Shown here piece after piece: positions 11,768-35,654 of a DNA stretch of 64,000 nt; position 1 is the stretch's first letter, and each line of letters begins with the position of its first letter. The position numbers and the translations under genes were made by a program. The notes beneath the pieces were generated by a model that was given only the letters and a program-made list of their open reading frames with translations, ran no database searches and was not told the DNA's origin. This DNA is from Variovorax sp. 770b2 (GTDB lineage Bacteria > Pseudomonadota > Gammaproteobacteria > Burkholderiales > Burkholderiaceae_C): the NCBI RefSeq assembly GCF_900115685.1, contig NZ_FOXJ01000001.1, positions 715,796-779,795 on the forward strand, given 5' to 3'.

Positions 11768-12278
11768 GCGGTTCACTCCTTGGTGCAAGGCAGTCATGAA
11801 ACAAGAAGGGGTTCCGGCTTGTTCAGATTGCAGATGGAGCGGCGAGTCTAGGAGTTGTGGATTTGCGCGGCAAGGACAACGGAACCTCGGTTTCTGCCAA
11901 CAGAGGGCTGGCGTTAGATCTGTGGCGTCGAGTGACCGGGCCGAACCCTGCGAGAGCTACAGTTGGGCCACGAGTACGCGTGGGGTTGGTTTGATTGCCC
12001 CTAAGATCCTGTGGTTTCGCCGGACACGCGGATATGTTGTTCTGAATTCGGGAGGCTGAAAACTCGGCAATGTGCGCGCCAAGATGGTGTCGATCTGAGC
12101 CAACATCCGGCTAGGAACCGACCTTCGTGAAGATCGACTACTCGCGCGTTTGCCCCAACAGGTGCACCGGCCCAGTTATATTCCGCGGGGAGCAAGGGGT
12201 CGTATGCATCCGCCAGTAGTCGAATTTCAGACGTTTGTTGCGCGACGTAGGCGCACCAGATAAATCCGACAGGTCTCG
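11768..12278. other. Intergenic stretch with one repeat motif
   Basis: No convincing gene was found in these 511 bases. Short frames on both strands lack family features or start signals. The only structure noticed is a copy of the 20-base array motif at 12108-12127, which marks the beginning of the first cassette-like array. Confidence 0.5.
12108..12127 (+). repeat. Array motif copy 1
   Basis: CGGCTAGGAACCGACCTTCG, a divergent copy of the consensus CGGCCANAASCGGACNTTCG. It is unusually far (151 bases) from the next start at 12279. Confidence 0.55.
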
Positions 12279-12782
12279 ATGTTTCAGACACGCGCATATT
12301 TGCAGGTCATCGCCATAGCAGGTTTGCTTGGCGCGCTCTTCTTCGGCGCGCAATGGCTCAGGCTCCCCAGCGGCCTGACAAAGGCCGCGTCACAGATGGA
12401 AATTGTGGACGCAGAGTACATAAAGTCTCGCTGGCCGCAAGCGAGATTTGTGCGCCATGACGGTACCTTCAAGCAGGTCTCGTGCGGGAGGGTCGGCCCT
12501 CTTTGTACACGCCTCAAGAGCGCGTCAATCAAACACCTTACAGTTTGGTTTGTTCCTTCGACACTCGGCGAGGAACCTTGGGTGGTGATGGTCGAGTCAG
12601 GAAGTCAAACCCTACTTTCTGAGGGGCAGCAGCAGGCGGCCCTCGACGACTTCAAGGCAAAGCCCGCGCTCATAGCTGGATTCTTCCTGCTGTTGTCGCT
12701 CGTGGGATTCTTCCTTGCTCGCCTGAAGCCTCGAGGCTTCAGGCACCGCCATTCCGGGCGCATTGACGGCCAAAGTAGGTAA
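12279..12782 (+). CDS. Two-helix membrane protein, cassette-type
   Basis: 167 residues with a hydrophobic N-terminal helix (about 9-26) and a second helix near residues 133-151 (LIAGFFLLLSLVGFFLA). The extracytoplasmic part between them contains two cysteines and the segment LTVWFVPSTLGEEPWVVMVE. The layout resembles small DUF3592-like membrane proteins, but I do not recognise it firmly. Base composition is lower in GC than the flanking metabolic genes. It opens the first array. Confidence 0.65.
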   Translation: MFQTRAYLQVIAIAGLLGALFFGAQWLRLPSGLTKAASQMEIVDAEYIKSRWPQARFVRHDGTFKQVSCGRVGPLCTRLKSASIKHLTVWFVPSTLGEEPWVVMVESGSQTLLSEGQQQAALDDFKAKPALIAGFFLLLSLVGFFLARLKPRGFRHRHSGRIDGQSR

Positions 12783-12868
12783 ATCTTGAGCGTCTGCCGT
12801 TGAGTCTGCAGGCTTCCAAAAGGCTCTCGGTATGAGGCAAAGGCCGCGAGACCACGACCGGCTACAGT

Positions 12869-12888
12869 CGGCCACAACCAGCCCTTCG
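12869..12888 (+). repeat. Array motif copy 2
   Basis: CGGCCACAACCAGCCCTTCG, preceded by GGCTACAGT. It ends 18 bases before the ATG at 12907. Confidence 0.8.
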
Positions 12889-12906
12889 CCATTGACTTCC
12901 GCCTCC

Positions 12907-13209
12907 ATGAATGCAAGCCAACTCCTTCTCGGCCTCCTTGTTGCCGTGTTTTTTGGCGTGTTCGTTTGGGACCGATACAACCACCACAAGGCACAACGGA
13001 TAGGTTCCTCTTGGAATTGCTTTCGATGCGGAGTGGAATTGGGGCCAATGCAGTCCGTTCACATTCGCGTAGCCGGTGGCCCGGAGGTGGCAACATCCGC
13101 CCGGGCGTGCAAGAGGTGCGCGAGACGCGACGCTCGCATCTGGTGGGCAGGGATGGGACTTGTGTGCATCCTGCTCGCAGCTACCGCCCTCCTGTTGATG
13201 TTGTCGTAG
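12907..13209 (+). CDS. Small zinc-ribbon membrane protein
   Basis: 100 residues: an N-terminal helix (QLLLGLLVAVFFGVFVW), a central part with CFRCG and, 42 residues later, CKRC, which could form a zinc ribbon, and a C-terminal helix (GLVCILLAATALLLML). It starts just after a motif copy. Upstream in-frame codons would only translate the repeat, so ATG 12907 is preferred. No family was recognised. Confidence 0.65.
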   Translation: MNASQLLLGLLVAVFFGVFVWDRYNHHKAQRIGSSWNCFRCGVELGPMQSVHIRVAGGPEVATSARACKRCARRDARIWWAGMGLVCILLAATALLLMLS

Positions 13210-13302
13210 CACCGACTCGCATCACGCCCAATGTCCCACATTGGAGCAGGCGGAAAGCAGGTTTCGGGGCCCCCTTGCTCCCAGGCCGAGACAGGCTACA
13301 GT

Positions 13303-13322
13303 CGGCCAAAACCAGACGTTCG
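13303..13322 (+). repeat. Array motif copy 3
   Basis: CGGCCAAAACCAGACGTTCG, with the full left extension GGCTACAGT. A second copy follows 16 bases later (13339-13358). Confidence 0.85.
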
Positions 13323-13338
13323 CCTCTAGGGCTGAATT

Positions 13339-13358
13339 CGGCCACAAGCGGAAATTCA
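13339..13358 (+). repeat. Array motif copy 4
   Basis: CGGCCACAAGCGGAAATTCA, ending 12 bases before the ATG at 13371. It forms a tandem pair with the preceding copy. Confidence 0.8.
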
Positions 13359-13370
13359 TGCCCCTTTGCC

Positions 13371-13991
13371 ATGAAACTTGAAAAGTCCAACGACGCGAGA
13401 CCGCGCGGCCTTCGGCAGCGATGGAGCGAGCCGACTTTCCATTCGTACGTGATTCCATTGGTTCGACAACTCCTTGAGGCTCGCGAGCTACATGGACATG
13501 CCGACCTGCGAGGAATGGTCATGGCTGCGGACGGTGCAATTGACGAACTGACTTCCGCCAACCTCTTTGAGGTCAAGATGTCAGATGTTGACCTTTCGGG
13601 CGCACTGCTGGCGACGTCCATGTCGAGTGCGAAATTTCTGCGGGTTCGCTTTGACAACGCAACGCTTGACCGTGTTCTGGCCAAGAAGGCCGTCTTCGAG
13701 GCGTGCAGCTTCGCCGGTTCCAAGCTCACTTTTCAGGCAGATGACGCCGTGTTCAATACATGTGACATGTCGAGCGCCAGATTCCTGGGCACCGGCTCTC
13801 TCCAAGAGTGGGGCGCACGACGGGCGAAATTCACGAACTGCGATTTGACGGACGCCTTATTCAAGCGAGTCGAGTTTCGAGCATGCGAGTTTGACAACTG
13901 CAAGTTTGACGGCTGTGTGTTCGAGCGATGCGATTTGCGAGGCGCGAAGTTTCTTGGTGCCTTGCCTGTGCTGAAGGACTGCACAGTTTGA
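13371..13991 (+). CDS. Pentapeptide-repeat protein
   Basis: 206 residues. From about residue 60 the sequence has A(D/N)LXX-like five-residue periodicity, for example DVDLSGALLATSMSSAKFL, then AKFTNCDLTDALFKRVEF and RACEFDNCKFDGCVFERC. This predicts a right-handed quadrilateral beta-helix. The first 50 residues are helical and may form a partner-binding part. Such proteins can mimic DNA or act as immunity or scaffold proteins; the role here is unknown. It follows a doublet of the array motif. Confidence 0.8.
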   Translation: MKLEKSNDARPRGLRQRWSEPTFHSYVIPLVRQLLEARELHGHADLRGMVMAADGAIDELTSANLFEVKMSDVDLSGALLATSMSSAKFLRVRFDNATLDRVLAKKAVFEACSFAGSKLTFQADDAVFNTCDMSSARFLGTGSLQEWGARRAKFTNCDLTDALFKRVEFRACEFDNCKFDGCVFERCDLRGAKFLGALPVLKDCTV

Positions 13992-14016
13992 ACAGCGGGG
14001 CCGCAGTCGCAGCGAA

Positions 14017-14072
14017 GCGTTGAACGTCGGCTTTGGGTCAACGCGTACAGCCGCTTCGGGCCCGAAGCGGCT
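14017..14072. repeat. Two adjacent perfect inverted repeats
   Basis: GCGTTGA (14017-14023) pairs with TCAACGC (14038-14044). Immediately after it lies a perfect 24-base palindrome at 14049-14072 whose left half is AGCCGCTTCGGG. The pair occupies the gap between the pentapeptide gene and the glyoxalase gene. It could terminate the first gene, although no T-run follows, or be a recombination or protein-binding site. This gap lacks the usual array motif. Confidence 0.6.
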
Positions 14073-14140
14073 AGGGTATGCAGCTTTAAGCTAGGCTCGT
14101 GTACGTTCACCAGTGCGTACCTCTTCGACCAAGGAAATCC

Positions 14141-14560
14141 ATGGCAAAGATGATCTTCGTCAGCCTTCCCGTTGCTGACCTCCGAACCTCGATCGCCTTC
14201 TACGAGGCGCTGGGCTTCCGGCAAAACCCGAAGTTCAGCGACGACTCTTCGGCATGCATGGTGTGGAGCGATGCAATCCACACGATGTTGCTGACGCATG
14301 ACAAGTGGCGCACCTTCACGGAGCGACCGCTGCCGGCGCCCGGAACCGCCGGGGTGATGCTGTCCCTGGCCTTGGAGAGCCGGGACGCCGTGGACGCGAT
14401 GAACCGTAACGCAGCAGCCAATGGCGGGAAGGCAGATGTCAATCCGGTACAGGACTTGGGGTTCATGTACGGCCGAGATCTCGCCGACCCCGATGACCAC
14501 CTGTGGGGGGCGTTCTGGATGGACCCGAACGCGACTTCGGCCTCTGAACCTCAGGGCTGA
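14141..14560 (+). CDS. VOC-family (glyoxalase-like) protein
   Basis: 139 residues beginning MAKMIFVSLPVADLRTSIAF, then YEALGFRQNPKFSDD, the usual VOC fold opening. The ending GRDLADPDDHLWGAFWMDP carries the typical final beta strand. The family covers glyoxalases, dioxygenases and antibiotic-binding proteins. The metal ligands are not complete enough by eye to name an activity. ATG 14141 has AAGGAA upstream. It lies inside the first array. Confidence 0.82.
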   Translation: MAKMIFVSLPVADLRTSIAFYEALGFRQNPKFSDDSSACMVWSDAIHTMLLTHDKWRTFTERPLPAPGTAGVMLSLALESRDAVDAMNRNAAANGGKADVNPVQDLGFMYGRDLADPDDHLWGAFWMDPNATSASEPQG

Positions 14561-14650
14561 TGCTGCCGTCGACTGCACTGAGAAGCGCCTTCATTGCTCA
14601 ATCAAAGTGGGCGTGTACGCCGAATCAACGTCGATGGATGAGGTGAAGGC

Positions 14651-14870
14651 TTGGGGCACCATCCTGCCGATGCCGCGCGACACATCGCGAACGCCCTGCA
14701 TGGCGGGTACGGGCAAGATTCCGCGGATGCGTTGCAGAAGATTCAGGCGCAAATGAACGCAGAGCTGGATGCCCCAGTTCACCTGCCGAAGGTGAGTTCA
14801 TCAAGCGTCACTGACGTATCGTCAAAGTTCGCTCAGCGTCTTTCGCGCCGGCAGCACGATCGGCGAAAGT
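14651..14870 (+). pseudogene. Possible remnant of a small cassette gene
   Basis: From a TTG at 14651 the frame reads GHHPADAARHIANALHGGYG, then QDSADALQKIQAQMNAELDA, which looks like a helical protein. After about residue 70 the frame runs into an array motif and then into a gene on the opposite strand without a natural end. It is either a truncated cassette gene or a frame with no function. Confidence 0.3.
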
Positions 14871-14890
14871 CGGCCAGAAGCGGTCGGTCG
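14871..14890 (+). repeat. Array motif copy 5
   Basis: CGGCCAGAAGCGGTCGGTCG. A second copy starts 36 bases downstream, and the next intact gene is on the opposite strand. Confidence 0.75.
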
Positions 14891-14906
14891 TCCCGTCGGG
14901 CAACTT

Positions 14907-14926
14907 TGGCCAGCACCGGACATTCG
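14907..14926 (+). repeat. Array motif copy 6
   Basis: TGGCCAGCACCGGACATTCG. It ends 13 bases before the stop of the minus-strand gene at 14940, so here the motif lies downstream of a gene instead of upstream. Confidence 0.75.
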
Positions 14927-14939
14927 ACAGCCCTGCCGA

Positions 14940-15458
14940 TCAGGGCGTGGGGTGTTTTGAATCTCTGGCTATGCGTCGCTCGGCAATTGACTTCAAGTCT
15001 GACCAGATCTCAAGCTTTGAAATGGCCGCGGCGTGCCCTTGTGCTGCTGACGCACGCAGCAAGACGTCAGCGCGCATGAGGTCCGACAGTGAGCCGCTCT
15101 TCATTGCTTGGACGTACAGTTCCCCCGAAAAATGGAACTGTGCCTCGGGGTCGCCGGATTCGATTTGCTCTTGCCATTCGGTCACCATCTCCGCATGCGC
15201 TGCGTGGGCTTCAGATTCGTAGTCCCTGATACAAATTTTCGTCTGGCTGTTCAGATCTATGAGAGAGAAGACGAGGTGGCCGAGCGACTTCTCAGCGTCA
15301 TCGGCAGATTGCTCGCGAAAGAATGCAACCTCAGGGGCCACCCCGTCGAACTCCTTCGCTCGAATTGCCGCAGTGTTTTCCACGTCGGTTGAATAGAAGA
15401 TGACCTTGCCAAGCAGTTCGTCATAGTGAACAACCAAGTCTCGCTTCTTGTCAGCCAT
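14940..15458 (-). CDS. Sel1-like hypothetical protein
   Basis: 172 residues. The N-terminal half is a mixed alpha/beta region with RDLVVHYDELLGKVIFYS. The C-terminal half (EWQEQIESGDPEAQFHFSGE, then ADVLLRASAAQGHAAAISKL) resembles Sel1/TPR-like helical pairs. It is the only minus-strand gene within the first array. I do not recognise a specific function. Confidence 0.65.
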   Translation of the reverse strand: MADKKRDLVVHYDELLGKVIFYSTDVENTAAIRAKEFDGVAPEVAFFREQSADDAEKSLGHLVFSLIDLNSQTKICIRDYESEAHAAHAEMVTEWQEQIESGDPEAQFHFSGELYVQAMKSGSLSDLMRADVLLRASAAQGHAAAISKLEIWSDLKSIAERRIARDSKHPTP

Positions 15459-15567
15459 TCGCCGGTCTCCCTGAGAGGTCCATTTGATGCCGCATTCTGC
15501 TGTACAAGCAGCGCATGGTGGTGGTCTGCCCAGGCAGAATGTCAGCCGTCTGGCCGACTACGGCAGC

Positions 15568-15587
15568 CGGCCGGGAGCGGTTGGTCG
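15568..15587 (+). repeat. Array motif copy 7
   Basis: CGGCCGGGAGCGGTTGGTCG, a divergent copy, 69 bases before the start at 15657. Confidence 0.6.
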
Positions 15588-15656
15588 CTCTGGTCCGTTG
15601 TGGATCAATTCATGATTCAGGTGCCAGCGGCGAGTGATCCAAACCAACGGGCGTCC

Positions 15657-15977
15657 ATGAGAAACAAGCGCTTCCTCTTCACTCTGTTAGCTATCGCAAT
15701 CACCGGGTTCGCGACGCCGTGGCTGGTACCCCAGGCCTGGTTGAGCTACATCCTTGTGACTTGCATCGTTCTTGGACTCGTCTGGGGCGTGCTCTCCGCA
15801 AACAGCGCCAGAGGCGGCGAACTGGGCCCGGGGCTCGGGGCGCTCTCTTGGCTGGTGCTCGGCACGGAACGGCCTGCAGCAGAAGTGGCTGACAGGCGTG
15901 CGTTGGCTCTGTTCTGGACCACGGTCCTCTATGCGGGTTCTTTCTGCGTTGGGGCATTCGCGGCAGTTCTCGCATGA
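15657..15977 (+). CDS. Small three-helix membrane protein
   Basis: 106 residues with hydrophobic segments near 7-22, 26-45 and 83-104 (LFWTTVLYAGSFCVGAFAAV). A short loop between helices 2 and 3 holds GGELGPGLGALSWLVLG. No family was recognised. An in-frame ATG at 15612 would add 15 residues. It is part of the first array. Confidence 0.6.
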   Translation: MRNKRFLFTLLAIAITGFATPWLVPQAWLSYILVTCIVLGLVWGVLSANSARGGELGPGLGALSWLVLGTERPAAEVADRRALALFWTTVLYAGSFCVGAFAAVLA

Positions 15978-16047
15978 CGTTTGCGAGCGCCTGTGACGGG
16001 CCCAGAAGCAGACGCCCAACCTTGACTCGGCAAATCACGGGAACAGC

Positions 16048-16362
16048 ATGAACTTGGTCTCCACTGGCGCCTTCGACCGCCTTCAGCAAGCTCTCACGGC
16101 CGAGCTTCTGCGAACAATCAAGGCTGAGCTGGAGAAGGTCGAGGCGCCCGAAGATTTGGTCGAGCAGCTCACGGGCAGCATTGGTTTCGCGGTGGCGAGC
16201 CTCATCGACGACGCGGCAGGTTTCCAGACGGATGGTGAAAGCGTCTCGCCGCTGCTGACGTTTCTTACCAGCGAGCAAACCTTGGAGTTCTGCGGCGGCA
16301 ACTCATACATGCATGAATACGTGCACCGACTCTTGCCGAAGCTCTTTCACTCAGAGGGCTAG
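16048..16362 (+). CDS. Small acidic helical protein, unknown
   Basis: 104 residues, predicted mostly helical (FDRLQQALTAELLRTIKAEL, then EQLTGSIGFAVASLIDDAAG), with a C-terminal EFCGGNSYMHEYVHRLLPKL. It is soluble and could be an immunity or antitoxin-like protein by analogy with its array neighbours, but there is no direct evidence. Confidence 0.6.
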   Translation: MNLVSTGAFDRLQQALTAELLRTIKAELEKVEAPEDLVEQLTGSIGFAVASLIDDAAGFQTDGESVSPLLTFLTSEQTLEFCGGNSYMHEYVHRLLPKLFHSEG

Positions 16363-16398
16363 CACTGGCCCCGCTGGGGCGGACGCTCCGGCAGAATC

Positions 16399-16418
16399 CG
16401 GCCAATAGCGGAAGTACG
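16399..16418 (+). repeat. Array motif copy 8
   Basis: CGGCCAATAGCGGAAGTACG, 36 bases after the preceding stop. No intact small gene follows directly, so the cassette here may have been lost. Confidence 0.7.
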
Positions 16419-16612
16419 CATGCGGGGCAGAGTTGCCACAAACCGATCATCCAAAAACATTTGAGCTTGGAATATGCCGCCAGTCTTGATTCGCCTTGAT
16501 CCTCGCCGCATGGAGAACCCAAATACCAATCTTCTGCGCCTCGCACCTGATCGCCCGGCTGACGTTTCGAGCGGAAGTCTGATGGACAGCAGCTGCGACC
16601 AGCTTCACCCCG

Positions 16613-16690
16613 ATGCTGTCGATCAGCAGGCGCAACCCCGTGCTGCTGCTCGCTGCGCTGGCGTGGGCGTATCTCGACAAGGGCGCCTGA
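16613..16690 (+). CDS. Possible 25-residue membrane peptide or 3' gene end
   Basis: An ATG at 16613 opens a short frame ending NPVLLLAALAWAYLDKGA and a TGA four bases before the next gene. The hydrophobic stretch could form one membrane helix. It may equally be the end of a lost upstream gene. Confidence 0.3.
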   Translation: MLSISRRNPVLLLAALAWAYLDKGA

Positions 16691-16694
16691 AACC

Positions 16695-17672
16695 ATGATC
16701 GTCCCCCAGTTCTGGGCCGAGGGCCGCATCCAGGAGCAGGTGGCCGGCAAGCAGTTCACCGTGCGCCGCTACGGCTGGTCCGATGACAGCCCCCTGGCTG
16801 CGCAGGCGCATGCCGACCAGCGCACTCGCGAAGCCTTCGACCGCATCGTCAGCGGCGAAATGCTGAAGCGTCGCGAGCGCAAGCTGGCCTACAACGGCGC
16901 CGAGGGCATGCCGATCCGCGAGGAGATCGTCGAACGCCAAGGTGACAGCGTCGTCACCCGCAACGGCTACGGCGCGCGTTGCCTCAACACGCCCGATGTG
17001 ATGTTCGTCGACGTCGATTTCGAAGACACGCGCGGTAGCGCGCGCGGGCTGACGGTGATCGGCGTGGCGTTCATCGCAGCGCTGGTCGCGGGCTACGCGA
17101 CGCGCTCGGCGATAGCGTGCGTTGCCGCGTTTGTGCTGATAGCGGCCGTCGGCATCTGGCGCGTACGCGCCGAGGGGCTGCGCTTCACCCAGGACAAGAG
17201 CGATCCCCTTGCGGGCGTGCATGCGCGCGTGGAGCGCTTCATCTACCAGCATCCTGACTGGCACCTGCGGCTGTACCGCACACCCGCAGGCGTGCGCGTA
17301 CTGGCCATGCACGACGTCTTCGCGCCGTCCGATGCCGCCGTGGCCGACGCTTTCCAGGCGCTGGGCGCCGACCAGGTCTACGCGCGCATGTGCCGCAACC
17401 AGAACTGCTTTCGCGCGCGCCTGAGCGCGAAGCCATGGCGCATGGACATCCGCGAGCACCTGCCGCGCCCGAACGTCTGGCCGGTGCCGCCCGACAAGCT
17501 ACCCGCGCGCGACGCCTGGGTGGCGCGCTACGAAGAGGCCGCCGAGGGTTATGCCGCGTGCCAGTACCTGGCGAGCGTGGGCAACACGCTGAACGTGCAT
17601 CTGAACGCGCTGGCGGTGCAGGAACTGCACGACGAACGCACCCGTGCCCATCGAGGTTTGCCGCTGGCCTGA
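16695..17672 (+). CDS. Conserved membrane-associated protein, unknown
   Basis: 325 residues. An N-terminal soluble part (KQFTVRRYGWSDDSPLAAQA) is followed by two membrane helices near residues 116-150. A larger C-terminal soluble domain has WHLRLYRTPAGVRVLAMHDV, CRNQNCFRARLSAKPWRMDI and an ending LNVHLNALAVQELHDERTRA. I recall similar proteins in many Proteobacteria without assigned function. Its high GC and size contrast with its small array neighbours, so it is probably a resident gene between cassettes. Confidence 0.8.
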   Translation: MIVPQFWAEGRIQEQVAGKQFTVRRYGWSDDSPLAAQAHADQRTREAFDRIVSGEMLKRRERKLAYNGAEGMPIREEIVERQGDSVVTRNGYGARCLNTPDVMFVDVDFEDTRGSARGLTVIGVAFIAALVAGYATRSAIACVAAFVLIAAVGIWRVRAEGLRFTQDKSDPLAGVHARVERFIYQHPDWHLRLYRTPAGVRVLAMHDVFAPSDAAVADAFQALGADQVYARMCRNQNCFRARLSAKPWRMDIREHLPRPNVWPVPPDKLPARDAWVARYEEAAEGYAACQYLASVGNTLNVHLNALAVQELHDERTRAHRGLPLA

Positions 17673-17770
17673 GGGGTCGGGTTCATAGACAGGAGCTTGG
17701 ATCGTGAAGGCGCGTGGGACTGCGAGCACGCGCAGTGTCTCGTGATTGCGCGGTAGGCAAAGGCAGAATG

Positions 17771-17790
17771 CGGCCAGAACCTGTCACTCA
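17771..17790 (+). repeat. Array motif copy 9
   Basis: CGGCCAGAACCTGTCACTCA, 32 bases before the ATG at 17823. Confidence 0.8.
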
Positions 17791-17822
17791 GTCATCCCGC
17801 AAACATCACAACAGGAGCGAAC

Positions 17823-18080
17823 GTGGTCTTCCTTGCAATTACCCCCAGCGGCCTGAAAGATGCACTGCGCGAGGCCGCAAGTTCGGGCACTGCGATTTGG
17901 TGTGGCGCCGATGCGGTCTCCGAGCAGGACTTCACCGTGCTGAAGGGGAAAGGCCTAACGCGCTTCGCGTATGCACTTGGAGCACGAGAACACCTGGTCC
18001 TAGAGGACGCGCTCGATACCATCGGCCAGCATCACCCCGACGAGATTGTTTGGGTTGAAGCCGCCGCCTCTGCTAGTTGA
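17823..18080 (+). CDS. Small hypothetical cassette protein
   Basis: 85 residues (VFLAITPSGLKDALREAASS, then GARHLVLEDAL-like GAREHLVLEDALD). It is soluble and mixed alpha/beta, with no recognised family. The stop TAG is followed within five bases by the next motif copy. The cassette from motif to motif is 314 bases, the shortest complete one in the first array. Confidence 0.6.
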   Translation: MVFLAITPSGLKDALREAASSGTAIWCGADAVSEQDFTVLKGKGLTRFAYALGAREHLVLEDALDTIGQHHPDEIVWVEAAASAS

Positions 18081-18084
18081 CCGA

Positions 18085-18104
18085 ACTCGGCCAAGACCGG
18101 ACCT
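18085..18104 (+). repeat. Array motif copy 10
   Basis: CGGCCAAGACCGGACCTTCG, 16 bases before the ATG at 18121 and four bases after the preceding stop. Confidence 0.85.
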
Positions 18105-18120
18105 TCGCAAGCGACCTGCC

Positions 18121-18570
18121 ATGGACCTAGAAATACGCGCCGCCGTCGATTCAGATTTCGAGTTCGCCCTCGATGCGAAGCGCCAGGCGCTGGGCCCCTA
18201 CGTTGCGGCGCGTTGGGGTTGGGACGACAACTTCCAACGGAATTTGCATCGAAGCCGGTGGAGGGAGCGCCCGTGGTCGATCATCCTTAAGAGTTCAATG
18301 CCAGTAGGCACGATTGCCACGTGGAAGGTCGACGGTCACCTTCGCATCGGCGAGTTCTACGTTCTGCCAGCCTTTCAGCGGTGCGGCATTGGTTCAGCCG
18401 TACTTCGTCAGGTGCTGGGACATGCAGATCAAGATAGCGAAGTGGTCCGGTTGGAACATCTGAAGTGGAATCCGGTCGGAGCGCTTTACGGCCGTCATGG
18501 ATTCGTCGAAGAGAATGCCAACGACACGCATTATTTCTTGGCTCGTCATCCAGTCGCCCTTCAACAATGA
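18121..18570 (+). CDS. GNAT-family N-acetyltransferase
   Basis: 149 residues starting MDLEIRAAVDSDFEFALDAK. The acetyl-CoA-binding region is EFYVLPAFQRCGIGSAVLRQ (motif A, Q/RxxGxG/A). The C-terminal VGALYGRHGFVEENANDTHY is motif B with its usual GF. The acceptor is unknown. The ATG at 18121 lies just after a motif copy; longer in-frame starts would read through the repeat. Confidence 0.88.
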   Translation: MDLEIRAAVDSDFEFALDAKRQALGPYVAARWGWDDNFQRNLHRSRWRERPWSIILKSSMPVGTIATWKVDGHLRIGEFYVLPAFQRCGIGSAVLRQVLGHADQDSEVVRLEHLKWNPVGALYGRHGFVEENANDTHYFLARHPVALQQ

Positions 18571-18592
18571 CGCCGCCGGAGAGACAGAAGCC

Positions 18593-18612
18593 CGGCCACA
18601 AGCGGACATCCG
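18593..18612 (+). repeat. Array motif copy 11
   Basis: CGGCCACAAGCGGACATCCG, 32 bases before the ATG at 18645. Confidence 0.85.
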
Positions 18613-18644
18613 AGGCTCACCTCCAACGTTGCAAGGACTCTGGA

Positions 18645-18935
18645 ATGGAAACGCGAGAAGCAGAACTGACCATCGAGCTGACCGGCGTTCGCAGTTCTCG
18701 CGAGCTTCACAAGCATCTGATGACCGCTCTTCGCTTTCCCGACTTCTACGGGCAGAACTGGGACGCGTTCTGGGACGCCATCACTGGCTTGATAGAAATG
18801 CCACTTCACTTGCGACTTAAAGGTTGGCCCGAACTGGTGCGATTACTGCCGAGGGATGCCGAAATACTTAGGCAGAGCCTCACCCAAGCGCAAGCGATGT
18901 ATCCATCGTCCGCAGCTACGGTCACATACGACTAA
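18645..18935 (+). CDS. Barstar-like ribonuclease inhibitor
   Basis: 96 residues. TIELTGVRSSRELHKHLMTA followed by LRFPDFYGQNWDAFWDAITG carries the barstar signature: FYGxNWDAxWD on the helix that plugs the barnase active site. A C-terminal strand VTYD follows. Barstar family proteins neutralise secreted or polymorphic-toxin ribonucleases. No barnase-like gene is present in the window, so this is an orphan immunity candidate carried in a cassette. Confidence 0.88.
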   Translation: METREAELTIELTGVRSSRELHKHLMTALRFPDFYGQNWDAFWDAITGLIEMPLHLRLKGWPELVRLLPRDAEILRQSLTQAQAMYPSSAATVTYD

Positions 18936-18944
18936 GCCGCCTCT

Positions 18945-18964
18945 CGGCCAACTGCAGACCTTCG
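18945..18964 (+). repeat. Array motif copy 12
   Basis: CGGCCAACTGCAGACCTTCG, directly before an ATG at 18967 that opens only a 45-codon frame. The cassette that belonged here appears truncated, because another motif copy follows within 80 bases. Confidence 0.75.
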
Positions 18965-19022
18965 TCATGAACGCCTGGTTTGCGAACACCTTGGATCGAC
19001 GGTCTCCTCGACCGGCTACAGT

Positions 19023-19042
19023 CGACCAAAACCAGTCGCCTC
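19023..19042 (+). repeat. Array motif copy 13
   Basis: CGACCAAAACCAGTCGCCTC with the left extension GGCTACAGT at 19014-19022. It is a diverged copy, recognised mainly through its extension. Confidence 0.6.
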
Positions 19043-19134
19043 GGCCAAGGCATCCAGCTCGGTCTGGAAGCCGCGCCAAAGCATTGCCCTTCGGCTTTGC
19101 ATGAATGCCACTCTCACCTTCGAAGGATGCCTCC

Positions 19135-19344
19135 ATGGCCGAAACGACCAAGGCAAAAGGACCTGCCTCATATTTCCCTTCCATCGAAAAGACTTACGCC
19201 AAACCAATAGCGCATTGGATGGAAATTCTCCAGAGTGCGGGCCCGCTGAAGCACATGGAACTCGTCAACCTCCTCAAAGTCCAGCACCAGGTCGGACACG
19301 GGCATGCGAACGCCTTGGTTGCGGCCTTCCTCGCGAAGAAGTAG
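19135..19344 (+). CDS. DUF4287 domain protein
   Basis: 69 residues. ASYFPSIEKTYAKPIAHWME, then VNLLKVQHQVGHGHANALVA, match the small DUF4287 family (KTYxKPIxHWxxxL, later HGHANALV). Its function is unknown; family members often occur beside DUF5655 or near regulators. ATG 19135 was chosen over 19105 because the conserved region starts right after it. Confidence 0.82.
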   Translation: MAETTKAKGPASYFPSIEKTYAKPIAHWMEILQSAGPLKHMELVNLLKVQHQVGHGHANALVAAFLAKK

Positions 19345-21463: not shown

Positions 21464-21473
21464 GGCGGCCACC

Positions 21474-31066: not shown

Positions 31067-31078
31067 CTTGTTCTCGAA

Positions 31079-31128
31079 TCGACCGGTCGAGCGCCCGCTT
31101 TCGGGCGCATTGAAGGGCCGGTTCGGAC
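31079..31128. other. Cluster of three hairpins after the lipoprotein gene
   Basis: A 12-base palindrome TCGACCGGTCGA lies at 31079-31090. GCGCCCG (31091-31097) pairs with CGGGCGC (31102-31108), and AAGGG pairs with CCCTT around CGGTTCGG at about 31112-31131. No T-run follows, so these are either weak terminators or structured DNA at the left edge of the second array. Confidence 0.5.
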
Positions 31129-31159
31129 CCTTTGCCTCAACAGCTCGTGCGGCTACAGT

Positions 31160-31179
31160 CGGCCAAAAGCCGACCTTCA
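31160..31179 (+). repeat. Array motif copy 15 (first of the second array)
   Basis: CGGCCAAAAGCCGACCTTCA with the full left extension GGCTACAGT, 27 bases before ATG 31207. Confidence 0.85.
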
Positions 31180-31206
31180 GCCCAAGTTCTCAATGAAAGG
31201 GATTTG

Positions 31207-31605
31207 ATGCCGTTCGATTTGGATGAGCGCTACGTGCAGGCCGCGGAGCAGGCGTTGGGCGTCAGCTTGCCGACGTCGTACCGCCTAGCCATGATGAGAA
31301 GCAACGGAGGCGCGGTCGCAACCGAGAGCGACGACTGGGACCTGTATCCCATCACGGACGATTCCGAGAGTAAGCGGCTCGCCCGCACCCTCAATGGCGT
31401 CGTGCCCGAGACAAAGCGTGCAAGAGCTTGGCGTGGATTTCCCTCCGCCGCCGTACCACTGGGCGGCAACGGCGAAGGTGACCAGCTAGTCTTTCTCGCG
31501 GATGGACAAGGGCTTGGTCCGGAGGTCTTTATCTGGCGTCATGAGACGTGCGAGTTGATCCGCGTCGCCGACGACTTCGCAGGCCTTGTGGCCGCCGGTT
31601 CATAA
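31207..31605 (+). CDS. SMI1/KNR4-family protein
   Basis: 132 residues: FDLDERYVQAAEQALGVSLP, then TSYRLAMMRSNGGAVATESD, AVPLGGNGEGDQLVFLADGQ and ETCELIRVADDFAGLVA. These are the elements of SMI1/KNR4 (SUKH) proteins, many of which are immunity proteins against polymorphic toxins. AAGGG precedes ATG 31207. The stop TAA (31603-31605) abuts the next motif copy. Confidence 0.85.
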   Translation: MPFDLDERYVQAAEQALGVSLPTSYRLAMMRSNGGAVATESDDWDLYPITDDSESKRLARTLNGVVPETKRARAWRGFPSAAVPLGGNGEGDQLVFLADGQGLGPEVFIWRHETCELIRVADDFAGLVAAGS

Positions 31606-31625
31606 CGGCCAGAACCAGTCACTCC
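31606..31625 (+). repeat. Array motif copy 16
   Basis: CGGCCAGAACCAGTCACTCC, beginning on the base after the preceding stop codon and ending 18 bases before ATG 31644. Confidence 0.85.
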
Positions 31626-31643
31626 GATTAGAGAAGCCGCACG

Positions 31644-32030
31644 ATGAGCCAAGAAGCAGCGCCACACAACGAGGTGGAATGGTTCCATGATTTGGCAAAG
31701 CTGCCTGTCGAGGAGCTTGTCCAGCAAGCGACTGACGTCAACCGCACGAGGTTCAAGAAGTTTGTGACTGCGAGCCTGCCGGGCCACGTGCCACCGGATA
31801 ACCAACCACCCGCCGAGTTTGCGACGACGGTCCTCGAGCTCAGGGCCAACCAACGTGGGTGGAATCGAGCCCTCGGTGAAGCGCTAATACATGCGGACGA
31901 CCAACGGTCCGAAGGAAACTTGCAGGCCGCGATCTCGGCATTGCGATCTTTTGCCAGCTCATGCCCTTGGAAAGCCTTTGGGGATATCGCGCGCGTCCAA
32001 GCCGACAGCCTCGAGAAAAACCGGCAGTAG
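31644..32030 (+). CDS. Helical cassette protein, unknown
   Basis: 128 residues, mostly helical: WFHDLAKLPVEELVQQATDV, then AEFATTVLELRANQRGWNRA and a C-terminal AISALRSFASSCPWKAFGDI. It has no signal peptide or membrane segment and no recognised family. The position between two motif copies suggests a self-contained cassette. Confidence 0.65.
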   Translation: MSQEAAPHNEVEWFHDLAKLPVEELVQQATDVNRTRFKKFVTASLPGHVPPDNQPPAEFATTVLELRANQRGWNRALGEALIHADDQRSEGNLQAAISALRSFASSCPWKAFGDIARVQADSLEKNRQ

Positions 32031-32044
32031 AAAAAGATCGCATC

Positions 32045-32064
32045 CGGCCAGAAGCGGTCATTTG
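32045..32064 (+). repeat. Array motif copy 17
   Basis: CGGCCAGAAGCGGTCATTTG, 14 bases after the preceding stop and 38 bases before ATG 32103. Confidence 0.85.
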
Positions 32065-32102
32065 GAGCTACGTCAGCCCTACCAGGACATACCAGCGACA
32101 CC

Positions 32103-32399
32103 ATGAAATGGCCATTCGACCAGCCCCGAAACTGCGCAACCGTCTTCTCGAAAAGCGTCTTGAATCGCAGCAGACCGATCCTGCTTGTTTCACATGACGA
32201 GGATGATCACGGATGGCAGTTCCTGGACGGGGTCAGCGAGGACCTGGAAGACCTTGCGCTTGCTGGTCTAGGCCATGTTCTGGAAATCGACCCTGGAATA
32301 GTTGAGCTCGCAGACCTTGTGCCCGGATTTCAGGCCACTCGCGCGGGGCCTCAAGAGCAATGGGTTGTCGAACCAGCACCGCCCCAGGACGAGGATTGA
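32103..32399 (+). CDS. Small acidic protein, possible immunity type
   Basis: 98 residues: SRPILLVSHDEDDHGWQFLD, then GVSEDLEDLALAGLGHVLEI and ELADLVPGFQATRAGPQEQW. The strongly acidic character and the SHDEDDxGWQF segment recall small uncharacterised proteins near toxin-immunity loci, but I cannot name the family. Confidence 0.65.
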   Translation: MKWPFDQPRNCATVFSKSVLNRSRPILLVSHDEDDHGWQFLDGVSEDLEDLALAGLGHVLEIDPGIVELADLVPGFQATRAGPQEQWVVEPAPPQDED

Positions 32400-32448
32400 A
32401 ATATCCTCTCCCTCGGGCAGTTGGCGTCTTCGTTAGGACGATGGCCAT

Positions 32449-32468
32449 CGGCCAGAACCAGACGCTCA
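32449..32468 (+). repeat. Array motif copy 18
   Basis: CGGCCAGAACCAGACGCTCA, 20 bases before ATG 32489. Confidence 0.85.
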
Positions 32469-32488
32469 ACCCATCGCCCCACCAACCT

Positions 32489-32863
32489 ATGAATGATGAC
32501 CTGATACAAGAACTGCTCGAGTGTCAGCGAAGGCTCAGTGCGGCGCTGCTGCAGCGTTATCCCGAGGTGCAAGGGAGCAAATGGCTTCTTGGCGTTCAGA
32601 TAGCTGAAGATCTCGAAGTTCACGGCGAGCATTGGGCGGCCCAGAAACACGGGTCTGGCGTGGTCTTCACCCGACAAGCACCAGTGCCCCACCTCGTCGT
32701 CGACATGCACACGGTAGTCAGCGATCCGGAGGTAATTGATCCTTGGCGAGTACAGCAATTTGCCGAATCGAAGGGTCAGCCTTTGCGCTATGACGAGGCT
32801 GAGTCTTTGCTTTACCGAGCATCGATAGGTCGACAGCCCTCGGCCACAAGCAGACTTGTCTAG
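32489..32863 (+). CDS. Cassette protein whose tail is encoded by the repeat
   Basis: 124 residues: LIQELLECQRRLSAALLQRY, GSKWLLGVQIAEDLEVHGEH, then PHLVVDMHTVVSDPEVIDPW. It is soluble, with no recognised family. The last residues (QPSATSRLV) are translated from array motif copy 19, because no stop occurs before the repeat. Either the gene lost its own stop or the repeat landed inside its 3' end. Confidence 0.65.
   Translation: MNDDLIQELLECQRRLSAALLQRYPEVQGSKWLLGVQIAEDLEVHGEHWAAQKHGSGVVFTRQAPVPHLVVDMHTVVSDPEVIDPWRVQQFAESKGQPLRYDEAESLLYRASIGRQPSATSRLV
32841..32860 (+). repeat. Array motif copy 19
   Basis: CGGCCACAAGCAGACTTGTC. It overlaps the 3' end of the preceding gene, whose stop TAG (32861-32863) follows directly. 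The next start is at 32924. Confidence 0.75.
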
Positions 32864-32923
32864 TGGTCACTCAAGCAGGCCTCAAAGTAGGCTTGGGGTG
32901 CTTTCAACAGAGAAATTGATGTT

Positions 32924-33445
32924 GTGATTTCTATTCGACCCGCAGAACCGAACGAATGGCGAGCTTATCGGGATGTACGCCTTCAGGCGCTGCTTGATTC
33001 GCCGAATGCCTTTGGCAGCACCTATGAAGAAGAGGCCGATAGAACGGACGCCAATTGGGCGGCCAGGATCGCTGCTGCGACCTCCTCCGGTCGGGACCGC
33101 ATCCTTTTCGCACGCGCTGGCGAGAGCGTTTGTGGTCTCGTGTGGTGCAAGTTGTCGACCGCCGAGCCGAGGGCTACGAATGTTTTTCAGACGTGGGTCG
33201 ATGCAGCATCTCGCGGAATGGGAGCGGGACGTGCCCTGCTAGAAGGGGCCATCGATTGGGCCGAGCGCGTCGGCGCGCGTCAAATTAATCTGGGTGTCAC
33301 CGCAGCAGAAACGCCCGCGATGCGCCTGTATCTGGCATGTGGGTTTCGCCCCGCAGGGGAAATGGAGCCGCTGCGGGAAAGCTCCGGCCTCATGGTGCAG
33401 CCGATGAGCCTGGCTGTTGGATCTGCCACCCGAAGCCTGAAGTGA
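32924..33445 (+). CDS. GNAT-family N-acetyltransferase
   Basis: 173 residues from a GTG. ISIRPAEPNEWRAYRDVRLQ opens the fold, FQTWVDAASRGMGAGRALLE is the acetyl-CoA-binding motif A (R/QxxGxGxxL), and AMRLYLACGFRPAGEMEPLR is motif B. LDSPNAFGSTYEEEA is typical of the phosphinothricin/ribosomal-protein acetyltransferase type. The substrate is unknown. It is the longest cassette of the second array. Confidence 0.9.
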   Translation: MISIRPAEPNEWRAYRDVRLQALLDSPNAFGSTYEEEADRTDANWAARIAAATSSGRDRILFARAGESVCGLVWCKLSTAEPRATNVFQTWVDAASRGMGAGRALLEGAIDWAERVGARQINLGVTAAETPAMRLYLACGFRPAGEMEPLRESSGLMVQPMSLAVGSATRSLK

Positions 33446-33506
33446 CGCAGTGGCTGCTCGGGGGGAGGCAGGGACCGTTCGTTACGGTATCGTGACTGGC
33501 TGCAGT

Positions 33507-33526
33507 CGGCCAGATGCGGTCATTGG
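33507..33526 (+). repeat. Array motif copy 20
   Basis: CGGCCAGATGCGGTCATTGG, extended on the left as GGCTGCAGT. Its last bases merge with GGAG, which serves the TTG start at 33536. Confidence 0.85.
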
Positions 33527-33535
33527 AGAACGACT

Positions 33536-33916
33536 TTGAATGGTGAATGCCTTTGTGCTGATGAGACAGCCTATTTGGCGCGGGCATTCGCGGATGTGCT
33601 GAACTACGAGGCGGGCGATGTGAATGCTCCCATCAACCCGCTTGCATACCGTTCACCCGACAACGATACATGCTTGCATATGGCGGCACATCGAGGCGAC
33701 GCTCGTGCGGTGCAGTTGCTTCTCAAGGCGGGCGCGAACGTCAACGCCATCGGTGACATGGGCTACACCCCGCTTCACTATGCGGCTTCTAGAGAAGTCG
33801 CGCCTGTCCTAGTCGGCGCTGGCGCTAATCCAAGCATCGAGGACGAGTTGGCAAAACCCCGGTCGCCTGGTAACGGCCACAACCGGACGTTGGCACCAAC
33901 GTCAGAATTCGGCTAG
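33536..33916 (+). CDS. Ankyrin-repeat protein with a likely 3' frameshift
   Basis: As read, 126 residues from TTG. It contains DNDTCLHMAAHRGDARAVQL followed by LLKAGANVNAIGDMGYTPLH, two ankyrin repeats. The tail (AKPRSPGNGHNRTLAPTSEF) reads through array motif copy 21. One extra base near 33850 would instead give a standard GKTPVAW and a TAA at 33871-33873, directly before the motif. This strongly suggests a one-base deletion (or sequence error) in the last codons. Ankyrin proteins mediate protein contacts, and small ones can be immunity factors. Confidence 0.8.
   Translation: MNGECLCADETAYLARAFADVLNYEAGDVNAPINPLAYRSPDNDTCLHMAAHRGDARAVQLLLKAGANVNAIGDMGYTPLHYAASREVAPVLVGAGANPSIEDELAKPRSPGNGHNRTLAPTSEFG
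33874..33893 (+). repeat. Array motif copy 21
   Basis: CGGCCACAACCGGACGTTGG, immediately after the TAA that would end the ankyrin gene in the corrected frame. It lies 71 bases before ATG 33965. Confidence 0.85.
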
Positions 33917-33964
33917 CACCGAGTGCTGCCAAGGGGCCATGGCGCAGACAACAAGGACCTGAAT

Positions 33965-34315
33965 ATGGACGGCGAAAGCCCTGAGTTCGAGCACACCGCA
34001 AACGAGATGAGTCGGCATCTATTCGACGCAGTTAACCAGATTCAAGAGCTGAAGGAACTCCGAACCGATGCCTTTGCGAAGGCAGAAGTACACATGCGTG
34101 AAATGGCGAGGCTCTTGAAAGGGCGAGAACAACTGCCCCGAAGCGTCCTTAAGCAGCTCCACATGGCGGCCGGCATCTTCGAAAACGAGACGCCCTATGC
34201 GAAAGACGAAGTTGCTACCGTAGCTATGGCAAATGCAGTGCGAACAACGCTTGGTTTTATCCTTTGGGGGCAATGCCACGACGATTGCACGTCCGGCGCT
34301 CCTCGGATCGTGTAA
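33965..34315 (+). CDS. Helical cassette protein, unknown
   Basis: 116 residues: EFEHTANEMSRHLFDAVNQI, then AKAEVHMREMARLLKGREQL and AVRTTLGFILWGQCHDDCTS near the end. It is soluble and mostly helical. No family was recognised. Confidence 0.6.
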   Translation: MDGESPEFEHTANEMSRHLFDAVNQIQELKELRTDAFAKAEVHMREMARLLKGREQLPRSVLKQLHMAAGIFENETPYAKDEVATVAMANAVRTTLGFILWGQCHDDCTSGAPRIV

Positions 34316-34324
34316 GGCTCACTT

Positions 34325-34344
34325 CGGCCACGACCGGTCAGTCG
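34325..34344 (+). repeat. Array motif copy 22
   Basis: CGGCCACGACCGGTCAGTCG, nine bases after the preceding stop. It forms a doublet with copy 23. Confidence 0.8.
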
Positions 34345-34361
34345 CGCCGTGGGGAAAAATT

Positions 34362-34381
34362 CGGCCAGAAGCAGTCAAACG
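34362..34381 (+). repeat. Array motif copy 23
   Basis: CGGCCAGAAGCAGTCAAACG, 46 bases before ATG 34428. The doublet spacing (37 bases start to start) equals those at 13303/13339 and 14871/14907 within one base. Confidence 0.8.
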
Positions 34382-34427
34382 CTAGCGTCGGCTTTTCTGC
34401 GTTCAAACTTAATTCGAGGAATACCGG

Positions 34428-34775
34428 ATGTCCGAAAAAACTCCCTTCCCGGAGAACGTGCCGGGCGATTTTTACGTGGAGGACGGCTGCTGTTTGTCAT
34501 GTGGAATGCCAATGACGGAGGCGCCTGAACTTTTTGCGTATGCCCCCGACGGGCATTGCTACGTGAAACGGCAGCCTTCGTCGGCCAAAGAGATGTGGCA
34601 GATGATTGGCGCACTCACCGTTCAAGATGTGGATTGCATTCGTTACAAGGGTAAGAATCGTGTCGTGCAGATTCGTCTCATTGGTGTTGGCGAAGGCGAT
34701 CAGTGTGATCATTTGCCTAGGGACCTGAAATCTCTTAGCGATGAAGTCAAAGCTGATCGCTCTGGGCTGAAGTAG
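34428..34775 (+). CDS. Ferredoxin-like small protein
   Basis: 115 residues: ENVPGDFYVEDGCCLSCGMP, then APDGHCYVKRQPSSAKEMWQ and VDCIRYKGKN. The arrangement of CCxxC, a distant single Cys and VDCIRY recalls a family annotated as ferredoxin-like, although the full four-cysteine 4Fe-4S set is not obvious. It could bind a cluster or zinc. Its electron partner is unknown. Confidence 0.7.
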   Translation: MSEKTPFPENVPGDFYVEDGCCLSCGMPMTEAPELFAYAPDGHCYVKRQPSSAKEMWQMIGALTVQDVDCIRYKGKNRVVQIRLIGVGEGDQCDHLPRDLKSLSDEVKADRSGLK

Positions 34776-34794
34776 GTGACATCACTGCTGGATA

Positions 34795-34814
34795 CGGCTA
34801 AAAGCGGTCCCCTG
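34795..34814 (+). repeat. Array motif copy 24
   Basis: CGGCTAAAAGCGGTCCCCTG, 19 bases after the preceding stop and 69 bases before ATG 34884. Confidence 0.7.
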
Positions 34815-34883
34815 GCCTCAGCTCAGGAAAGCGCGTGAACACCGCCTTGGCACCGGTAACAATCGAAGCAAACCAGACTTGCG

Positions 34884-35156
34884 ATGCTGAATCCCCAAAA
34901 CATTCCTAGCCACTTGCACCATCGCCTGCTCCCCTTGTCAGACTTGGTGATGCAGTTTGGGGTGACCGACGACGGGGAGCGTCTTCGGGCTTTGAAGCTT
35001 GCTTCGCCGGACGAGGTATCTCGGCTCCGCCGTGCGATTGTCGAGCACGACGACGCATTAGACGAGTGGCTCGCTGGCCCTGAGGCAGACGGGCCAACGT
35101 ACACGAACGAGTACATTGCATTCAGCGCCATGCGGATGGCTGCTGACATGGCTTAA
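34884..35156 (+). CDS. Small helical cassette protein, unknown
   Basis: 90 residues: SHLHHRLLPLSDLVMQFGVT, then ALKLASPDEVSRLRRAIVEH and DDALDEWLAGPEADGP. It is acidic and soluble, with no recognised family. Confidence 0.6.
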   Translation: MLNPQNIPSHLHHRLLPLSDLVMQFGVTDDGERLRALKLASPDEVSRLRRAIVEHDDALDEWLAGPEADGPTYTNEYIAFSAMRMAADMA

Positions 35157-35190
35157 AGGGTGCCGCCGGCACCGCCTGTCTGGCAGGATG

Positions 35191-35210
35191 CGGCCAGAAC
35201 CGGACACATA
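35191..35210 (+). repeat. Array motif copy 25
   Basis: CGGCCAGAACCGGACACATA, ending on the base before ATG 35211. With no other ribosome binding site present, the motif itself must serve as leader here. Confidence 0.85.
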
Positions 35211-35534
35211 ATGGACCTTGAAGAATACTTTGCGGAATTCAAAACGGCGGTTAATGTGGGCGCAGGTTTTGGCCTCACAGTGCACGTTGCAGCTGAAGTA
35301 GCAGCCGGTCATTCGATTGGACTTACCTTCGCGCAGATGCATGCTTTCCTTGCTCGACGTACTCAGATAACGAGCGTTGCCTTTGCTCTGAAGGGTCCCT
35401 TTCTGTCTCCAGAGCAGATTGCCAGGATAGATTTGGCACGGGCTGAAGGTGCGGTCGACCCCAAAGACGTGATTCTGAGAGCCTTCACGCAGGAGGAGGT
35501 GCGCTCGGACCTCCTGACCAAAATCTCCACATAA
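35211..35534 (+). CDS. Small cassette protein, unknown
   Basis: 107 residues: MDLEEYFAEFKTAVNVGAGF, then FAQMHAFLARRTQITSVAFA and LIDLARAEGAVDPKD-like ARIDLARAEGAVDPKDVILR, ending in a helix. It is soluble. No family was recognised. The start codon touches the motif. Confidence 0.6.
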   Translation: MDLEEYFAEFKTAVNVGAGFGLTVHVAAEVAAGHSIGLTFAQMHAFLARRTQITSVAFALKGPFLSPEQIARIDLARAEGAVDPKDVILRAFTQEEVRSDLLTKIST

Positions 35535-35608
35535 AACACAAGGTCTGTTTCGGAGAAGAGTGAACTTCGGCTTAGGGCCTTCGCGACACATGCGCCACTG
35601 GCTACAGT

Positions 35609-35628
35609 CGGCCAACACCGGACGTTCA
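35609..35628 (+). repeat. Array motif copy 26
   Basis: CGGCCAACACCGGACGTTCA with the left extension GGCTACAGT. A partial copy follows at 35635-35654. Confidence 0.85.
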
Positions 35629-35634
35629 GGCCCT

Positions 35635-35654
35635 CGGCCGGAATCCAGTCAAAA
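35635..35654 (+). repeat. Array motif copy 27 (partial)
   Basis: CGGCCGGAATCCAGTCAAAA, a diverged second copy 22 bases before ATG 35677. Confidence 0.55.

Follow-up and report, generated by a model that had tools for sequence, protein, structure and literature searches.

In this study, we analyzed a 64,000-nucleotide stretch of Variovorax sp. 770b2 (the window, G000:C4:715796-779795, where G000 is the source genome; L-codes below are extracted loci with coordinates internal to each), in which copies of a short motif, hereafter the site, separate the small genes of two arrays. The arrays contain recurrent units that are bounded at the CGGCCA of the site and lie in differing contexts. Judged from sequence comparison, they are very probably tandem mobile gene cassettes moved by site-specific exchange, most likely by a small tyrosine recombinase that is encoded on another contig (C11) of the genome, amid copies of the same site.

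A first-pass annotation had listed 27 copies of a 20-base motif, all in plus orientation. Searched with up to 3 mismatches, its consensus gave 16 matches across the window, all on the plus strand and all between 12,869 and 35,628, and 100 shuffles of the window gave a mean of 0.21 matches and a maximum of 1. A 21-column site profile (threshold 12 bits, trained on array loci including the window itself) gave 27 plus and 1 minus matches, with a mean of 1.1 and a maximum of 3 in 20 order-1 random windows. Twenty-two of these copies are convincing, 11 per array (Table 1), and the weak matches, which lie inside a gene or away from the arrays, are at 4253, 14218, 25735, 29901 and 63515 on the plus strand and 14040 on the minus strand. 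The motif is real and its uniform orientation holds (16/16 consensus matches and 22/22 clear copies), but the count falls to 22 clear copies, or 23 with a degenerate copy at 12108 that scores only with a profile trained on the window, the rest being degenerate or weak; the interval 20.2-30.4 kb, said to have at most one weak copy, has two (25735, 29901). The extra left part described on some copies also exists, as GGCTACAGT or GGCTGCAGT at window sites, and exact GGCTACAG was present on 132 of 603 sites in pooled loci, a share inflated by loci (L051-L135) that were retrieved by an exact pattern containing the left part. In the window and 20 further array regions there were 209 sites versus 13 on reversed sequence, and neighbouring sites were on the same strand in 120 pairs versus on opposite strands in 22.

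The exact breakpoint within the motif was obtained from homology between loci. All-against-all blastn gave 425 usable matches (150-2500 bp, different loci, both directions counted), of which 480 ends lay within 150 bp of a site; the interval from -15 to +4 took in 164 of the 241 5' ends, and that from 0 to +24 took in 162 of the 239 3' ends. Among pairs picked for a match ending within 30 bp of a site and compared base by base, identity at 54 distinct 5' junctions stayed close to background up to -1 and rose from position 6-7, while at 53 3' junctions it was high up to -1 and at background at position 6. Homology switches at CGGCCA|N, and the conservation of CGGCCA itself prevents finer placement. 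The variable positions 9-19 move with the downstream cassette and positions -9 to -1 do not, so that exchanges are confined to about 6-7 bp. In a flank test with one pair for each of 40 families (60-mers, cut-off at the 99th percentile of 400 random pairs), the sequences just inside the sites were alike in 38/40 families at the 5' end and 33/40 at the 3' end, and those just outside in 3/40 and 0/40, respectively.

Two explanations without a dedicated enzyme have to be weighed against these junctions. Homologous (RecA) recombination between short dispersed repeats would account for numerous repeats with breakpoints inside them; however, the repeats are short (about 20-30 bp) and diverged, the exchange is limited to about 6-7 bp, and a recombinase with the same sites around its gene is present in many genomes (see below), which makes this explanation very unlikely. 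A regulatory or RNA element shared by the genes (promoter, operator or leader) and spread by ordinary processes would fit the position of the crossover, a median of 48 nt ahead of the first start codon of the longest frame (283 segments), and an AT-rich CAnAAT-like word that recurs near +30. It fails to predict homology that starts and stops at one point in the motif, a fixed half-site beside the DTW gene or sites around a recombinase gene (both described below), and no Rfam match at gathering level was found inside the arrays; we give it almost no credence, although a promoter or operator role may exist within the same site. We infer that the +30 word mostly represents the left arm of a further site, in many cases decayed, that follows 36 bp later. 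Three tandem doublets with 36-37 bp spacing occur in the window (Table 1), and doublets are also found in L036, L038 and L046; they could be gene-less mini-cassettes, and the core of their second site is often preceded by a word ending in AAT(T). Among the three options that the first-pass annotation had offered (mobile cassette, regulatory element, RNA element), the mobile cassette is thus strongly supported, as content differs at precise motif boundaries.

When the loci were cut at the crossover, we obtained 582 segments, 533 of them distinct, in 473 families defined from site to site (homology starting mid-cassette is uncounted), and 43 families were recurrent. Both neighbours were known in at least two copies for 11 recurrent families, and all 11 had different neighbours and none the same; one of the 11 consists of the recombinase gene, which contains a site-like stretch, so that 10 are counted. 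In the window, the SUKH cassette at the start of array 2 was 91% identical over 445 nt to a cassette of V. beijingensis (L104), and the DNA was unrelated on both sides from the core outward. Two more relatives of this cassette were about 76% identical, whereas none of the other window cassettes had DNA-level relatives (75% identity, 70% cover) in the loci compared.

The gene with a DTW domain that adjoins array 2 allowed one array edge to be compared between genomes. It had matches in 25 of 101 genus genomes, and the neighbourhoods of 21 of the 24 others were compared, made up of 20 retrieved loci and L045; G320, which is at a contig end, and G345 and G346, with 56-60% identity, were excluded. 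A half-site, CGGCC(A)-AAACCAGCCATTTAGCTGGTCACTTAAATG, stands at the 3' end of the DTW gene in 17 of the 21, and the DNA to its left varies; 18 loci had been matched by script, of which L238 was dropped as chance, L246 was below the cut-off though visible by eye, and L249 and L250 have no half-site. Across the 18 edges, pairwise identity averaged 0.27 to the left of the core and 0.74 over right-hand positions 21-55, and at least four genomes have the same left sequence in common. The source genome has no such half-site, and its last SUKH gene abuts the DTW gene. This comparison indicates that the arrays do not keep their gene order and that the site marks one fixed edge; the question raised in the first-pass annotation, whether relatives keep the gene order, is answered in the negative both here and in the compared arrays. 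A small inverted repeat, CCAGC-cattta-GCTGG, directly follows the core of the half-site (e.g. L234 near 13956).

A search of six genomes with PF00589 identified small tyrosine recombinases in or beside the arrays of G000 (C11), G034 and G004. The protein has about 205 aa and comprises the catalytic domain only (PF00589 at residues 40-191 of 207, E 6.9e-18); R58, K86, H155, R158, H181 and Y190, which we take to be the R-K-H-R-H-Y catalytic residues of tyrosine recombinases, were invariant across 31 aligned homologues. An AlphaFold2 model (mean pLDDT 85) had Foldseek matches to XerA, XerH, Cre and IntI. In a tree of 52 rows, which is unrooted and for which the reading frames of the IntI and Xer rows were picked by catalytic motif, the recombinase family was resolved as a single clade (100/100), separated from IntI and Xer by a long branch. 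The recombinase was found in 42/101 genus genomes at E <= 1e-20, the source genome included and some with fragments, and in 74/397 Pseudomonadota genomes and 55/222 genera at E <= 1e-30. In addition, it was present on 443 plasmid records under about 95 genus names, 176 of them predicted conjugative, and was annotated among the 30 records listed as 'tyrosine-type recombinase/integrase', as 'integrase family protein' or not at all. One member is carried by C. metallidurans pMOL30, with one site just past the gene.

Sites were concentrated around these recombinase genes. In 25 of 30 genus loci there were sites outside the gene, amounting to 75 sites in 88.6 kb; 12 IntI loci had 2 sites in total. 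Under a lax 11-bit cut-off, the nearest site was outward-pointing in 22/30 genus and 12/29 distant loci for the 200 bp downstream of the gene, and in 9/30 and 10/29, respectively, for the 250 bp upstream. The 29 distant loci gave 45 site matches versus 2 on reversed sequence, at least 4 of them inside the gene, and 20 larger distant loci (L212-L231) gave 70 versus 13; three further distant loci, chosen by motif, are outside this set. Counting 10-mers de novo in distant loci gave, for the most part, no useful signal. Core sites of tyrosine recombinases usually consist of two inverted arms that enclose a spacer of about 6 bp, and the sites of L212 follow this plan as near-palindromes (GAATGACTGCTT-TCGGCC-AAAAGCGGACATTC), the observed crossover falling at the edge of this type of spacer. 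The first-pass annotation saw no recombinase, which is correct for the window but not for the genome, where an open frame on C11 (L034:6281-7105) has right-facing sites at L034 7052, 7592 and 8323 and one weak left-facing site about 85 bp past the stop; the doublets and the exact breakpoint are likewise additions to its picture. Around G004:C2 ~3.848-3.877 Mb (L146, L148), about 40 site matches over about 29 kb accompany two recombinase genes of two subtypes, and this is the best complete platform seen; the 19.5 kb of L146 account for 28 profile matches, two of which fall within the recombinase genes. The recombinase gene itself carries a site-like stretch that codes for a conserved VGQK-xPF segment (L153-L162, mostly near 1555 or 2045), which is either a coincidence or an internal site.

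The site might be real and the enzyme another recombinase, for instance Xer or the accessory integrase of an IS91-type element. In G020, an IS91-like unit with a tyrosine recombinase adjoins an array site (L046:15236-17314), and some array-bearing genomes have no small recombinase, both of which would agree with another enzyme. Nevertheless, nine loci of other tyrosine recombinases (eight Xer-like, one IS91-linked) had 0 sites in 28.7 kb, and the small recombinase repeatedly has sites close by, so that we regard another enzyme as improbable. The tyrosine recombinase of G020 was considered as the enzyme and dropped, as the IS91-linked integrase occurs in 12/185 class genomes and not in G000. 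The IS91-like unit lies about 140 bp past the array site, and a second copy (G020:C2:1000495) is about 4 kb from other array sites.

We also considered whether the arrays are a canonical integron remnant (CALIN) of IntI-type cassettes with drifted attC sites. Such a remnant would share the array layout, with small cassettes of one gene each that mostly point the same way, and the existence of arrays in genomes without the recombinase. However, no IntI was found at the TIGR02249 cut-off in G000 and 7 relatives (0/8), and G000 had none in a survey in which 52/249 phylum genomes have one. The attC box consensus is RYYYAAC for R'' and GTTRRRY for R'. In both arrays there were 0 R''/R' box pairs (30 shuffles: mean 1.3, maximum 8) by this consensus test, which is not an attC covariance model, and no hairpin covariation was detected over 333 sites (own arms 15.79 versus swapped arms 15.84), which bears out the earlier remark that the repeat is not attC-like. 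Moreover, the crossover is followed by a conserved block of 14 nt that is unlike the TTRRRY of attC, and the associated recombinase is the separate clade described above. An integron remnant is thus extremely unlikely. Two candidates were rejected in the course of this comparison. An attC-like long inverted repeat had been suspected, with upstream GCTTCGGGCCC seeming to pair with the motif, and the same 333 sites gave no excess of own-arm complementarity; matches of the IntI search read as Xer proteins, plus the G020 recombinase next to what we take, by the look of its sequence, to be an IS91-type transposase. G151, G455 and G593 each have a real IntI and also match the small recombinase, in the case of G455 only in part, therefore the two systems can coexist.

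To describe how the site is distributed, we searched the extended left-part pattern exactly in one genome per species and obtained 79 stretches, mostly from Variovorax, the others from Rhodoferax, Polaromonas, Pseudacidovorax, Achromobacter, Pseudomonas, Pantoea and metagenome-assembled genomes. Among 61 genomes (37 Variovorax), several had far more motif than the reversed control, clustered on one strand. Among 250 genomes from the family (three Variovorax), most were at the level of the reversed control, with exceptions including G302, G165 and G221.

Further, we propose how the system might work. A cassette would extend from just after CGGCCA (NAASCRGACNTTCG, followed in most cases by a single small gene of the same strand) up to the CGGCCA of the next site, and strand exchange inside the CGGCCA of two sites would move cassettes between sites. 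The catalytic-domain-only recombinase probably cuts out a cassette as a circle with one site and inserts the circle at another site. The outward-pointing sites beside the recombinase gene would act as attI-like targets from which arrays perhaps grow outward, and the two arrays of the window would be orphans, served in trans or left behind. Catalysis, the circular intermediate, double-stranded sites and a preference for particular sites are deduced from this arrangement and are presumed here.

Several observations weigh against arrays of cassettes served by this recombinase. No recombinase match at E <= 1e-20 was found in 59/101 genus genomes, and arrays are present in four genomes without such a match (G009, G011, G020 and G033), which would have to be orphans as well; because of these array-bearing genomes, the link between enzyme and arrays is one of association. 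The motif is at control level in most family genomes outside the genus, and 12/29 distant recombinase loci have no profile site close to the gene, whose sites may differ, unless the association is not universal. The two arms of the Variovorax array sites are not inverses of each other, in contrast to the near-palindromes of L212, and on C11 the sites at L034 9582 and 10241 face back towards the recombinase gene. Concerning the cassettes, about 370 of up to 850 blastn match ends were more than 150 bp from any site, 33 of 419 segments of up to 1300 bp had their clear frame on the opposite strand and 103 were ambiguous (283 had a clear same-strand frame), and no pair of the type A-X-B versus A-B, a clean single-cassette difference, occurred among the loci compared, perhaps because nearly every genome is a different species.

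The genes between the window sites are unrelated small reading frames, almost all on the plus strand (Table 1). The first-pass annotation was right in calling their products unrelated small proteins: SUKH, GNAT, barstar, ankyrin, pentapeptide, glyoxalase-like, DUF4287 and DUF6896 proteins are present besides unknowns. The median cassette size was 600 bp (472 families). Pfam assigned 76 families to 145 cassette proteins sampled at random from the 283 with a clear frame, GNAT acetyltransferases being the commonest (PF00583, 8/145). A defence-island reading was unsupported, since two PADLOC models matched one protein each among the 145. Apart from the arrays, a chrB-b RNA (RF03086) at 22879-22934 on the minus strand (49.4 bits) is the sole Rfam match at gathering level in the window.

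Table 1. Sites, reading frames and adjoining genes of the two arrays (window coordinates)
Feature	Position	Strand	Evidence
Array 1, 11 clear sites between small genes	12869..19042	+	profile scan
Two reading frames: 12832-13209 (no Pfam match) and 12966-13991 (pentapeptide repeats in second half)	12832..13991	+	
Site with GGCTACAGT left part	12869..12888	+	consensus + profiles
Site with GGCTACAGT, first of 36-bp doublet	13303..13322	+	consensus + profiles
Site, second of doublet	13339..13358	+	consensus + profiles
Glyoxalase/bleomycin-resistance-like (VOC) frame, without clear site directly ahead	14099..14560	+	
Site, first of 36-bp doublet	14871..14890	+	consensus + profiles
Site, second of doublet	14907..14926	+	consensus + profiles
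Reading frame, no Pfam match	14940..15458	-	
Site	16399..16418	+	consensus + profiles
Site	17771..17790	+	profiles
GNAT acetyltransferase frame	18046..18570	+	
Site	18088..18107	+	consensus + profiles
Barstar-like frame	18465..18935	+	
Site	18593..18612	+	consensus + profiles
Site	18945..18964	+	consensus + profiles
Weaker site with GGCTACAGT	19023..19042	+	profiles
DUF4287 frame	19105..19344	+	
Array 2, 11 clear sites between small genes	31160..35628	+	profile scan
Site with GGCTACAGT	31160..31179	+	consensus + profiles
SUKH (SMI1/KNR4) cassette, 446 bp crossover to crossover	31166..31611	+	
Site	31606..31625	+	profiles
Site	32045..32064	+	consensus + profiles
DUF6896 frame	32360..32863	+	
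Site	32449..32468	+	consensus + profiles
Site overlapping 3' end of preceding reading frame	32841..32860	+	profiles
GNAT acetyltransferase frame	32924..33445	+	
Site with GGCTGCAGT	33507..33526	+	consensus + profiles
Ankyrin-repeat frame running across next site	33536..33916	+	
Site within end of preceding reading frame	33874..33893	+	consensus + profiles
Site, first of 37-bp doublet	34325..34344	+	consensus + profiles
Site, second of doublet	34362..34381	+	profiles
Frame with weak Fer4_13 match	34428..34775	+	
Site	35191..35210	+	profiles
Site with GGCTACAGT, last clear one ahead of DTW gene	35609..35628	+	consensus + profiles
SUKH_6 gene, last of array 2	35677..36210	+	
DTW-domain gene adjoining array 2	36187..36828	-	

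Integrons are the textbook route for bacteria to capture and rearrange single genes. We consider it rather probable that the arrays belong to a second, independently evolved integron-like system, with double-stranded sites pointing outward on both sides of a small tyrosine recombinase gene, promiscuous one-gene cassettes, an occurrence on Pseudomonadota chromosomes and plasmids, and the seeding of recombinase-less arrays. No description of the site or the system was found in the open-access literature (preprints and most subscription papers were outside the scope), and we could assign neither the enzyme family nor the site to any cassette system that we found, while the logic of the system is integron-like. 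If this is true, a class of mobile gene pools would be invisible to tools that seek attC and IntI, and a much smaller recombinase would be available for comparison with IntI, together with a store of unknown small proteins.

The defining features of integrons and CALINs are IntI, attI and attC cassettes, as given in PMC8618304 and PMC9024848. The arrays share with integrons one-gene cassettes in direct tandem, one site for each cassette, a precise boundary, a tyrosine recombinase with adjoining sites, recombinase-less arrays and mostly small proteins of unknown function; they differ in that the recombinase is a separate catalytic-domain-only clade of about 205 aa and in that the sites have neither R''/R' pairs nor hairpin covariation and may occur on both sides of the recombinase gene, directed outward. 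Acinetobacter dif (pdif) modules are also non-integron gene modules bounded by tyrosine-recombinase sites; they use XerC/XerD sites and come as C and D modules in alternating orientation, whereas the sites here were absent from the eight Xer-like loci, are linked to a different recombinase and are mostly in direct orientation, and by eye they do not resemble the dif sequence. The recombinase-in-trio elements and BIM of Cupriavidus and its relatives, which likewise are tyrosine recombinases of mobile elements in Betaproteobacteria, consist of three adjacent recombinase genes and a bipartite module, respectively, in passages of PMC2864759 and PMC3414803 that do not cover the family member on pMOL30, unlike the single gene with arrays here. 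Lastly, NCBIfam NF007371 'tyrosine-type DNA invertase' matched the recombinase weakly (E 8.9e-06). Invertases of the FimB/FimE type have about 200 aa, have no N-terminal core-binding domain and flip one segment between inverted repeats, whereas the sites described here are mainly direct repeats in arrays.

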